Virus record (IMG/VR): IMGVR_UViG_3300025109_000007
Span: 1 to 64,000 of that record
Length of the DNA stretch: 64,000 nt
Reading direction: 5' to 3' (one strand)
Source of the DNA: a virus
Made by a program: the position numbers and the translations under genes. Positions within the stretch are counted from its first letter, which is position 1; each line of letters opens with the position of its first letter. The notes under the pieces were generated by a model. The model made no database searches. It had not been told where the DNA came from and was given only the letters and a program-made list of their open reading frames with translations. Below are positions 34,101 to 37,651 of this stretch, piece after piece.

Positions 34101-35246
34101 ATGCACGACCATCGCACCCGCGCTTGGCTCGCCGCTTCACTAGTTGTCGCTCTCGTGGGGTGCGCTGGTGCGGGAGGCGAGCCACGCAGTTCGTCCACGG
34201 CCGGCGCAGAAGCACCGCCTCCAGGCCGCACCGCGACGACCGAACTCGAGGATGGGCGCGGGGACGAGGAGACCGAGCTCGCCGCCATGGGCCGCGAGTT
34301 CCGCGTGCTCGCGATCGACTCCGGACAGGGCGACTGCACTCTGGTCCAGTGCCCGAACGGCTCAAACATCCTCATCGACTGCGGCTCGACCGTGCATGCC
34401 CAGTCGTCCCGCGACCACGTTCGAGAGGTTCTCTCGCGCGAGCTCGGGGACTCCGGCATCGACGCCCTCGTCCTGACCCACCCGGATCGCGATCACTACA
34501 ACTGGCTCCCCGAGGTCGTGGGCTCGCGCGCGGTGGACCGCATCCTCTTCGCCGGTGACCCGTCGGCGTACTCCGAAGGGCAGATGCCCGAGTGGATGCG
34601 CGGGCGCGCGGGCGTGACCTTCTTCGGCGAGCGTCACGACGCTCCCGACGCGCCCTCGGACCTCCTCGACTGCGGCCCCGTCGACGTGCACGTGCTCGCC
34701 GCGAACGTCCCGGCGGGCGGCGGCGAGGCCGACGACCGAGGGTGGAACAGCAACAGCGGCTCGATCGTGCTGCGGTTCGGGCTGCCGGGCGCGGACCGGG
34801 CCCTCGCGATCCTGACCGGCGACGCGACCTGGTACACGGAGCGCGCGATCCGCGAGGCCTATCCGGCCTCGTTCCTCCGCGCCCAGCTCCTGCGGCTCGG
34901 GCACCACGGGACCAGCGTCACCTCGACCGAGCAAGAGTGGGTCGAGGCGGTCCAGCCGTCGGCCGCGTTCTCGTCGGCCGGGCACCACGCGAGCTGGCGG
35001 CACCCGCGCTGCGCGGTGGTGGACCGCGTCGAGGCGGCGGGCTCCCTGTCCGCGGTGTCCTGCCACTGGACCGAGTGCGGGACCCCCAGCACAGGCGAGT
35101 GCGACTCCTCGAGCACGCGGGGCTGGTGCCGGAGGCAGAGCGAGGTGGCCTACTTCGACACCTTCTCGTCCGGAGAGATCGACTTCCGGTTCACGAGCGG
35201 CGAGCTCGTCGAGCCCGAGGTTGCGCGTGGAGAGTGCACCGAATGA
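34101..35246 (+). CDS. Secreted metallo-beta-lactamase-fold lipoprotein (ComEC-like)
   Basis: 381 residues. A signal peptide ends in the lipobox LVGCAG (about residue 20), then a Thr/Pro/Glu linker (25-65). The body is a metallo-beta-lactamase fold of the ComEC/Rec2 C-terminal kind: FRVLAIDSGQGDCTLVQCPNGSNILIDCG, the metal motif THPDRDHYNWLP, LTGDATWYTE and LRLGHHGTS. The HxxxDH core lacks the first histidine of HxHxDH (HPDRDH), as in many ComEC-like proteins. It would act outside the cytoplasm, perhaps on nucleic acid or nucleotides. It is translationally coupled (4 bases) to the next gene and heads a four-gene operon. Confidence 0.75.
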   Translation: MHDHRTRAWLAASLVVALVGCAGAGGEPRSSSTAGAEAPPPGRTATTELEDGRGDEETELAAMGREFRVLAIDSGQGDCTLVQCPNGSNILIDCGSTVHAQSSRDHVREVLSRELGDSGIDALVLTHPDRDHYNWLPEVVGSRAVDRILFAGDPSAYSEGQMPEWMRGRAGVTFFGERHDAPDAPSDLLDCGPVDVHVLAANVPAGGGEADDRGWNSNSGSIVLRFGLPGADRALAILTGDATWYTERAIREAYPASFLRAQLLRLGHHGTSVTSTEQEWVEAVQPSAAFSSAGHHASWRHPRCAVVDRVEAAGSLSAVSCHWTECGTPSTGECDSSSTRGWCRRQSEVAYFDTFSSGEIDFRFTSGELVEPEVARGECTE

Positions 35247-35746
35247 GCCGCGGTCCGGAGTGCCAGTGGCATGAGGTCGCCGCCTTCTGCGGGGGTGGAG
35301 AATCCGACCGTTGCACACGGATGGCGGTGACTGAGCAGGCGCTGTGTGCCCAGCACGCCCGTGTCGTGTTCGCCCAGGCATCGCGTGCGCGGCGCTCTCC
35401 GCGACGCCTTGCGTCAAAGGCGAAGGGCTTCGCAGTCACCGTGCTGGCCGGTGTCGGCGTCGACGTAGGTGTGGAGTTCGTGAAGATTATCGCGGGGCTG
35501 CTTGGCGGCGACCTCATGGTCAACCTCCGGACGGATGCCAGGCCGCGGGTTCTCGAGGTGGATGGAGAACTGGGCGAACGCGCGTGGGATGCCGTCGTGG
35601 ACGCCTCAAGCGGCCTGGATGAACACGCACTCGGCGTCTGCCTGCGCGCCGAGTTCACCGCTGCCGGAGTGCTCGCATCGGGGGCAGAGGCGCAGGACAT
35701 CACGCTGAGCTCGCTGGACGACAACGGGAGGAGCGGCGATGAATGA
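35243..35746 (+). CDS. Zinc-ribbon/membrane-helix protein, cassette gene 2
   Basis: 167 residues. The N-terminal 40 hold Cys/His pairs (CQWHEVAAFC, RCTR, LCAQH) that could bind one zinc. A hydrophobic segment at about 62-86 (FAVTVLAGVGVDVGVEFVKIIAGLL) is followed by a soluble C-terminal domain. Overlaps of 4 bases with both neighbours tie it to the cassette. Family not recognised; the hydrophobic helix makes a membrane-acting component possible. Confidence 0.55.
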   Translation: MSRGPECQWHEVAAFCGGGESDRCTRMAVTEQALCAQHARVVFAQASRARRSPRRLASKAKGFAVTVLAGVGVDVGVEFVKIIAGLLGGDLMVNLRTDARPRVLEVDGELGERAWDAVVDASSGLDEHALGVCLRAEFTAAGVLASGAEAQDITLSSLDDNGRSGDE

Positions 35747-36525
35747 CGACCCACGCGACGGCGCCGGGGAGAAGGTGCTCAAGGCCGGCCTCGGCGCCGC
35801 AGGAGGCCGATGCGGGCGGAGAGGTCTCCACAACGGCGCGCCCCGTACCTCCGGCACCCAAGACGGTTCCTGTGGCGAGACCGGACGCCGCGCCGTGCGG
35901 AGGTGCCGTCCGTTCAGTTGACAAGTTGAACGGTATCACGCCCTATTTGCGCGTGGGGCACGACAAGAAGGCGAAAGCCATAGCATCTGAACTTCCCGCC
36001 CTGAGCGGACTGCACGAGCGCCACGTTGGCCTCACCCAGGAGGTGTGCGCCGCGAACGCCCAAGCCGCAGCCGTCTGCCTCGACCGGCACCACCAGCCTC
36101 CGACCACTGTTGAGGTCGTCAGTCCCGAGCGACGGGTGCGCTGGGACCTGAGGTGGGAGCCAGCGGATGAGCGCGCGCGTCGGGCATGGGCGAACGCGGA
36201 CGACGCTACCGAAGACGGAGCTTGCGCCGTCGCGATGGCCGTTGTGGAGGTCGAGCTGGGCCTAACGGCGATCCAGCGCGCGGAGACTAAGACGGGAGCA
36301 GACTACTATCTGGGCCACGAGGGCGATGATACCCTTGAAACGGCCTATCGCCTTGAGGTCGCGGGAAGCGACCGCGGGGATACCCGCAGTCTGAAGTCAC
36401 GGCTGAGCCGGAAAGTCCGCCAGACGCGCCAAGGGAAATCAAACCTCCCTGCCATCGCATCCGTAGTTGGCTTTCGTGCGGGAGAAGTGCATCTCCGGGT
36501 GGACGTGGATACGAGCGATGAGTAG
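35743..36525 (+). CDS. Cassette gene 3, GADYYLG/RLEVAGS domain protein
   Basis: 260 residues in the frame starting at 35743. The N-terminal 60 are a Pro/Ala-rich linker and may be wrongly framed: an ATG four bases upstream opens another frame with a better-looking N-terminus. The C-terminal domain (about 140-260) has AVAMAVVEVELGLTAIQRAETKTGADYYLG and TAYRLEVAGSDRGD, followed by RLSRKVRQTRQG and a final beta segment. From memory, this pattern (GTGVDYWL..ARLEVSGI) defines small bacterial proteins often encoded next to a TPR-containing partner, as here. No known activity. Confidence 0.55.
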   Translation: MTTHATAPGRRCSRPASAPQEADAGGEVSTTARPVPPAPKTVPVARPDAAPCGGAVRSVDKLNGITPYLRVGHDKKAKAIASELPALSGLHERHVGLTQEVCAANAQAAAVCLDRHHQPPTTVEVVSPERRVRWDLRWEPADERARRAWANADDATEDGACAVAMAVVEVELGLTAIQRAETKTGADYYLGHEGDDTLETAYRLEVAGSDRGDTRSLKSRLSRKVRQTRQGKSNLPAIASVVGFRAGEVHLRVDVDTSDE

Positions 36526-37651
36526 CGCGCACCAGCGAGCGCAAGAGCTGGCTTCTCGAGCAGGTTTGGCTCGACGTGAGGGCAACAGAGGTATGGCTCG
36601 GAGGCTGTTCTCCGAGGCGGCCGATCTCGAAGGAGAGGAACTGTTTCGCACTAGCAAAGATCGCGTAAGAACCCGCTCTATACTCGCTGTAAGCTACGTC
36701 TCTATGCTCTACAAGTCTGCGAGATATGCGGACGCCGAACACGCTATCTATCAGCTCATGGCTGGCGGCGACTTGATGGAGTTTGCCGAAGTTCAGCTCA
36801 GAGATCTGCTCGAGAGTGTGTTCGATGAGCAATCTCTACCCGAAGGGTATGAGTACTCCGGCGATGAGTTGGAATTCGCGCTACGGGGCGGTCAGGTGGG
36901 CTTCGGTACGGCGCCGTTTGACCTTATCCTTCAGACCGGCACTGGGCTGCGCAACTATGTGACGCGGATGACCGAGTTTACCGGGGGGTTCCCGTTTCGC
37001 CCTCGAGGAGCAGCGCCGAACGAGGTTCAGAGGGCGCTTCAGACCCGCGCCACCATTCCGCAAAGTGGAAGCTATCGACTCTCGCTCCGAATAGTCGAAC
37101 CGTCTCAGACGGTGCTCTTCCCCGAGCCGAAGAGCGTCCAGCCACGCCGAGCCATCGATACAGCGCTAGAGGTTATGCGACTGGCGGCTGGCGGGACTTC
37201 TGCATCCCACCAGCGGCTTCAGGAGGTCGTACCCGATCGCCAGTACCGAAAGGCATTTCTCGGTATTCTGCGAAACCTGGCTCCGACTGGGCGGCAGGCG
37301 GAGAGCCTGGAGGTAAGGCGTGTTGGCGCCGATGCAGATCCCTACGACCGCGTCTACTTTACCAAGGCAAGCGGTGAGAAGATGAAGGATCTCCTCCTGT
37401 ATGAAGAGCCTCAGGAGGCAAGTGAACGCGTCGTTCATGTCGATGGCGTCTTGCGTGCCTTGCACCTCGACAAACGCTGGCTGGAGCTCGCACTCCCTGA
37501 TGGGAAGCGGCTGAGGTACCGAACACCCAAAGACGCGCTGGATGACGTCATCGGCCCGATGGTGAACCGAAAGGTGCGCGCGACCGGTCGCAGGCGGGGA
37601 AAGCAAACCAAGTTGGAGTTCGACTTGCTCGATATCGAAGTGCTGGACTGA
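36518..37651 (+). CDS. Cassette gene 4, TPR-like partner protein
   Basis: 377 residues, overlapping gene 3 by 8 bases. N-terminal helices (about 5-75) form a TPR-like pair (RREGNRGMARRLFSEAADLEGEELFRT; TRSILAVSYVSMLYKSARYADAEHAIYQLM). A middle region (about 85-270) has LRGGQVGFGTAPFDLILQ, EVVPDRQYRKAFLGILRNLAPTGR and a beta-strand pattern; the C-terminus (about 295-377) looks like an OB-fold (VVHVDGVLRALHLDKRWLEL). The gene is lower in GC than its neighbours. I recall the same two-gene unit in other bacteria, cyanobacteria among them, without a known role. Confidence 0.6.
   Translation: MSSAHQRAQELASRAGLARREGNRGMARRLFSEAADLEGEELFRTSKDRVRTRSILAVSYVSMLYKSARYADAEHAIYQLMAGGDLMEFAEVQLRDLLESVFDEQSLPEGYEYSGDELEFALRGGQVGFGTAPFDLILQTGTGLRNYVTRMTEFTGGFPFRPRGAAPNEVQRALQTRATIPQSGSYRLSLRIVEPSQTVLFPEPKSVQPRRAIDTALEVMRLAAGGTSASHQRLQEVVPDRQYRKAFLGILRNLAPTGRQAESLEVRRVGADADPYDRVYFTKASGEKMKDLLLYEEPQEASERVVHVDGVLRALHLDKRWLELALPDGKRLRYRTPKDALDDVIGPMVNRKVRATGRRRGKQTKLEFDLLDIEVLD

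Follow-up and report, generated by a model that had tools for sequence, protein, structure and literature searches.

A rare, mobile two-gene unit in a phage cargo region, encoding a predicted restriction-endonuclease-like protein and a TPR-like partner, is a candidate defence module

Introduction

An IMG/VR virus record of 67,646 bases carries four overlapping genes in a cargo region, and these raise the question of whether all four encode a single system and whether such a system acts against phages. The window—the whole stretch of DNA analysed here—comprises positions 1 to 64,000 of this record. The original prediction described the four as a translationally coupled cassette in which an outer-surface enzyme and a membrane component are joined to a cytoplasmic pair in an anti-phage or uptake-control system, and named decay by frameshifts as a finding that would speak against it; no such decay is seen in the window, and all four open reading frames are open and intact, start with ATG and lie on the + strand. 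On the evidence here the four are not one system: genes 3 and 4 form a unit, and genes 1 and 2 appear to be unrelated neighbours. The features discussed are:

29247–30146, +, N-acetylmuramoyl-L-alanine amidase for lysis, the final late gene ahead of the cargo region (Amidase_2 2e-5, slightly under the cut-off)
34101–35246, +, gene 1, lipoprotein with a ComEC-type metallo-beta-lactamase (MBL) domain, 381 aa, outside the conserved pair
35243–35746, +, gene 2, 167-aa protein rich in Cys and His, with a single hydrophobic helix, outside the conserved pair
35743–36525, +, gene 3, 260 aa, predicted to adopt a restriction-endonuclease-like (PD-(D/E)XK-like) fold, conserved from about 35998
36518–37651, +, gene 4, partner protein, 377 aa, with TPR-like helices (aa 3–105), a middle alpha/beta part (117–300) and an OB fold (305–375)
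37693–39222, −, tyrosine integrase, from an adjacent phage or from the same one, with a 93% identical counterpart in phage G039
37924–37958, +, core of the attachment site, identical in sequence to the 3' end of ssrA, GTTCGACTCCCGCCGCCTCCACTAG

Results

Genomic setting of the cassette

The cassette lies, as predicted, between lysis genes and an integrase, with the amidase to its left and the integrase to its right, and the gene 3–gene 4 pair is about 0.3 kb from the core that is identical to the ssrA 3' end. Phage G039 is integrated at the 3' end of ssrA (tmRNA); its record opens on the 3' end of the host ssrA, identified by inspection of the sequence (ARAGORN finds no complete tmRNA there), is collinear with the window record over 37.9–67.6 kb and 11.2–29.2 kb, and stops short of the cargo slot. 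Because no ssrA lies to the left of the core in the window, the core may be either an attP-like site or the junction of two tandem prophages.

Several other features of the record were noted. There are three different tyrosine integrase genes (2025–3620, 37693–39222 and 46128–47396), only the second of which is at the ssrA-like core, and a sulfotransferase-like protein (39490–40041, −) adjoins that integrase. Positions 1–308 copy 17025–17335 (251 bases exact), the end of the tape-measure gene region, which suggests a third related phage, or a remnant of one, at the left end of the record. The same cargo slot holds two adjacent low-GC open reading frames with membrane helices (30229–31412, −), which match nothing in Pfam or PHROGs and are possibly another conversion or exclusion pair, and the cargo region also encodes a stand-alone histidine-kinase-like protein (31974–32927, +; HATPase_c 4e-20). 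Tandem 33-base units, each containing GGACCC-CA-GGGTCC, stand upstream of DnaB-like genes (7443–7650) and are possibly iterons or operators, and overlapping inverted repeats of about 90–160 bases (63407–63615; 70–73%), about 1.5 kb past a ParB-like gene, may serve as an origin or a partition site.

Genes 3 and 4 are a conserved pair

Single-sequence scans with genes 3 and 4 of the window found nothing in viral contigs or phages, and gene 4 found nothing in plasmids; the one lead to the family was a weak tblastn match (E-value 8e-3) on an Anabaena plasmid, where a two-gene operon encodes proteins matching both genes. Further plasmid members of the pair are present in Hymenobacter and Leptolyngbya. 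Profile scans gave 64 loci in genomes and two in viral contigs (66 scan loci), and relatives of the pair occupy at least 60 loci; these come from over nine phyla and lie on chromosomes, on plasmids or in phage contigs. Nearly all intact gene 3 homologues have a gene 4 homologue right after them: this arrangement is seen at 53 of the 66 scan loci, 43 with an in-frame ATG giving ATGA, a 4-base overlap; in L042 and L057 gene 4 has a larger overlap with gene 3. The scan loci without an intact adjacent pair are contig ends, broken copies, or a natural gene 3–gene 4 fusion of 575 aa (L053), and two loci (L045 and L047) have two pairs each in tandem. The co-occurrence of genes 3 and 4 that the original prediction proposed as a check is thus borne out as a conserved two-gene unit across phyla.

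Trees of both proteins place the same clade with the window (values of 100/100 and 100/99), and this clade also takes in Undibacterium, Chloroflexota, Pseudomonadales and another genome. Across five genome samples, seed genomes included, the family was found in 1/398, 3/301, 3/247, 2/145 and 10/149 genomes (about 0.3–7%); its spread is patchy, with several broken copies among the sampled genomes, and many chromosomal copies are solitary in ordinary surroundings (L015, L029 and L064, for example). Judged from these sequence comparisons, genes 3 and 4 are a genuine two-gene unit that is rare, mobile and uncharacterised.

Two overlapping genes with patchy distribution on plasmids and phages, and with decayed copies, are also what a toxin–antitoxin addiction module of mobile elements would present, with gene 3 as a nuclease-like toxin and gene 4 as a TPR-like antitoxin. 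We consider this rather unlikely: gene 3 always comes first, the two are fused in L053, gene 4 reaches 370–450 aa with an OB domain, above the usual antitoxin size, and a non-exhaustive search saw no free single antitoxins.

Genes 1 and 2 are neighbours of the pair

The predicted overlaps of 4, 4 and 8 bases are real on reading of the open reading frames, and a strong Shine-Dalgarno sequence, GGGAGGAG, precedes the gene 3 ATG at 35743; a sigma-70 promoter scan of the cassette region found nothing. The first part of gene 3, up to about codon 70, nevertheless resembles non-coding sequence in composition (GC2 0.70), is modelled with low pLDDT and lacks homologues; the main start of gene 3 may therefore lie elsewhere, and the overlap with gene 2 may depend on a secondary start codon.

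A profile search of all four proteins placed only gene 1 in a family (MBL); for genes 2, 3 and 4, nothing in Pfam, NCBIfam, PADLOC or PHROGs scored above cut-off. Gene 1 is a ComEC-type MBL lipoprotein, as predicted: it has a signal peptide with the lipobox LVGC and an intact MBL core (HPDRDH, GD, GHHGT), and matches Lactamase_B (5e-11) and ComEC_Rec2 (3e-18), below every equivalog cut-off. It shares the core and the motifs HxxxDH, GD and GHHG with ComEC/Rec2-type proteins, but only the MBL region is matched, the transmembrane competence domain being absent and a lipoprotein signal present instead. Its relatives are about 30% identical, with varied annotation and unrelated contexts, several of them surface-type (lamin tail or S-layer domains), and none was found in viral contigs. 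Among defence models (PADLOC, NCBIfam) genes 2–4 have no match above cut-off, and gene 1 has weak partial matches over the first MBL motif to MBL defence systems (LmuA/Lamassu, Avs1a, RT-associated MBL and 6A-MBL); these span about 65 residues and fall far below the cut-offs, gene 1 is a secreted lipoprotein, and no partner genes of those systems were identified in the cassette. Gene 2 is Cys/His-rich and has the single hydrophobic helix described for it; no relatives of it were found, and a search of plasmids gave nothing.

When genes 1 and 2 were compared by tblastn with all other pair loci, no linked copy of either and no relative of gene 2 was found. The only gene 1 match there, an MBL at L063, was rejected as a counterpart, being a chromosomal ComEC gene on the other strand and about 2.5 kb away. 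The claim of a four-gene system is accordingly rejected on this evidence. As gene 1 looks like any extracellular MBL of the ComEC-like kind, that of a surface enzyme feeding the cytoplasmic pair has adjacency as its one support. Joint action of all four proteins, from the surface lipoprotein through the membrane protein to the cytoplasmic pair, would be in keeping with the three overlaps and the Shine-Dalgarno sequence, yet is very improbable in view of the absence of genes 1 and 2 from all other pair loci examined, the uncertain gene 3 start and the generic relatives of gene 1. We regard genes 1 and 2 as independent, separate cargo.

Gene 3 has a predicted PD-(D/E)XK-like fold with an altered active site

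The GADYYLG..RLEVAGS core described earlier is present in gene 3. An AlphaFold2 model, built on an alignment of 40 natural sequences, has a core pLDDT of 95–98 and the alpha-beta-beta-beta-alpha-beta arrangement (H152–172, E175–179, E188–191, E202–209, H214–230, E237–243) that is the order of the PD-(D/E)XK core. The top Foldseek matches are nearly all enzymes of the restriction-endonuclease fold, the best being tRNA-splicing endonucleases, Hjc, MGME1, HincII and cap-snatching endonucleases; as the E-values are weak (0.06–1), only the fold class is claimed. The gene 3 profile matched nothing significantly among PDB sequences or in Pfam. The prediction for gene 3 is thus a restriction-endonuclease (PD-(D/E)XK-like) fold, at the level of fold class.

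The conserved residues are E157, D187, E205, R220, K224 and Q227. In an alignment of 41 gene 3 sequences, D187 and E205—corresponding to the catalytic D and D/E on successive strands—are each present in 41/41, K224 and Q227, on the next helix, in 40/41 each, and R220 in 39/41. Gene 3 is therefore like members of the PD-(D/E)XK superfamily such as the Hjc resolvase, MGME1 and HincII in its predicted core topology, in placing D and E on consecutive strands, and in the acidic E157 on the helix preceding the strands. It differs in that the lysine usual two residues after the E, that of the (D/E)xK motif, is absent from 41/41 sequences (Ser in 39 and Ala in two, A207 in the window), and in its near-invariant K and Q on the following helix. 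The helix lysine K224 may replace the lost motif lysine. As the motif lysine is absent throughout, nuclease activity of gene 3 is uncertain.

This absence, the presence of Hjc and tRNA-splicing endonucleases among the top fold matches and the many solitary chromosomal copies would also suit a housekeeping-like accessory role, in which gene 3 is an inactive nucleic-acid-binding protein of this fold that serves with gene 4 in repair, recombination or regulation of host or phage. Such a role seems unlikely, since K224 and Q227 are nearly invariant, like a working active site, and the pair is rare, patchy, on mobile elements, and beside BREX or restriction–modification/Abi genes in two phages.

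Gene 4 combines a constant TPR-like domain with a variable C-terminus

The proposed TPR-like gene 4 with an OB-like C-terminus is confirmed by AlphaFold2 and Foldseek, and its lower GC content (0.59) likewise. The model has a five-stranded OB barrel with strands within residues 305–375, which Foldseek matches to SSB, RPA and CusF with a probability of about 1.0; the middle alpha/beta part is without a match. Against PDB sequences the gene 4 profile hit TPRs alone, designed ones among them, and a search of plasmids with the middle/OB part alone found nothing. Members of the family have a short form (about 113–154 aa) or a long form (about 360–450 aa, including that of the window); all have the TPR-like domain, and the long forms have the C-terminal OB fold. 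In Hymenobacter (L003:4525–5430) the TPR-like part of a gene 4 relative is fused to a sugar transferase, and the relatives in L058 and L062 have a C-terminal part that differs again; this end of gene 4 seems to be exchangeable.

Linkage of the pair to defence genes

Five other phage contigs carry the pair. In L070 and L111 it is within or beside structural genes, and in L116 it is in a cargo cluster with a repressor on one side and an integrase on the other. In L109, the closest phage-borne relative, it occupies a cargo slot like that of the window and immediately precedes a BREX locus; on the same strand follow a BrxF-like gene, a DNA methylase, a 1447-aa ATPase, PglZ (3e-9) and BrxL (2e-115), and pair and locus together lie between a serine recombinase and amidase/tail genes. 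The large P-loop ATPase is BrxC-like by size and position only, since the DUF499 model gave no match on L109. In the fifth, L069, the genes upstream of the pair encode a D12-type methylase (read from the sequence), a SacI-like enzyme (2e-4) and AbiV (4e-20). The BREX linkage is from one locus (L109) and the SacI/AbiV linkage is also from one (L069). L109 and L114 are examples of a prophage-like contig with a BREX-type locus (PglZ, BrxL) between recombinase and lysis/tail genes.

No BREX genes (PglZ, BrxC, methylase) were recognised among the genes read near the cassette of the window, and most pair loci likewise have none nearby; to our knowledge, no BREX system is known to include the pair as a component. 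Its position directly upstream of BREX in L109 is where an immunity or control gene could be expected, and this, with its carriage by phages, would fit counter-defence, in which the pair shields phage or lysogen from restriction or BREX-type systems without attacking invaders. Most copies, though, are chromosomal or plasmid-borne without BREX, and no anti-defence family was matched, so we hold counter-defence to be quite improbable.

A PADLOC tally gave 71 families from 130 proteins neighbouring the pair and 14 from 131 control proteins; as these are raw counts from few proteins, without statistics, the small, modest excess is not counted as enrichment, and the neighbourhoods are described as slightly richer. 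The predicted defence hotspot is thus a fair description of the phage slot, but the chromosomal neighbours of the pair are only slightly above control in PADLOC families. Caspase-like neighbours occur in about ten cyanobacterial pair loci, probably as genome background.

Discussion

The proposal of an anti-phage system keeps its ground for the pair, which is in phage cargo and beside defence genes in L109 and L069, and not for the four-gene form. We infer that genes 3 and 4 probably function as a module of defence or superinfection. We put at about even the chance that they are, more narrowly, a defence module acting on invading nucleic acid and carried as phage cargo (a moron). Under this defence reading, the pair would be a moron placed next to the integrase gene and the attachment site, and gene 3 would be PD-(D/E)XK-like with a rearranged active site, in which K224 may take the place of the missing motif lysine. 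The TPR-like domain of gene 4, constant in the family, would most likely bind gene 3, and the OB fold of the long forms would most likely bind nucleic acid or a nucleic-acid-bound signal; the lysogen would then be defended against other phages or plasmids by the pair, either by itself or together with systems such as BREX. Complex formation between the gene 3 and gene 4 proteins is, like the defence role, presumed here. More tentatively, the pair might represent a new immune-module family, in which a PD-(D/E)XK-type nuclease with a helix-moved lysine and a nucleic-acid-sensing TPR-OB partner travels on phages and plasmids and has been recruited by BREX loci.

Literature searches by locus tags and by topic found no description or name for the pair. 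It spans more than nine phyla, yet is missing from Pfam, NCBIfam, PADLOC and PHROGs. The links to BREX and to restriction–modification/AbiV genes in phages make it a concrete candidate defence module, and the altered active site of gene 3 would widen the known range of the restriction-endonuclease fold.
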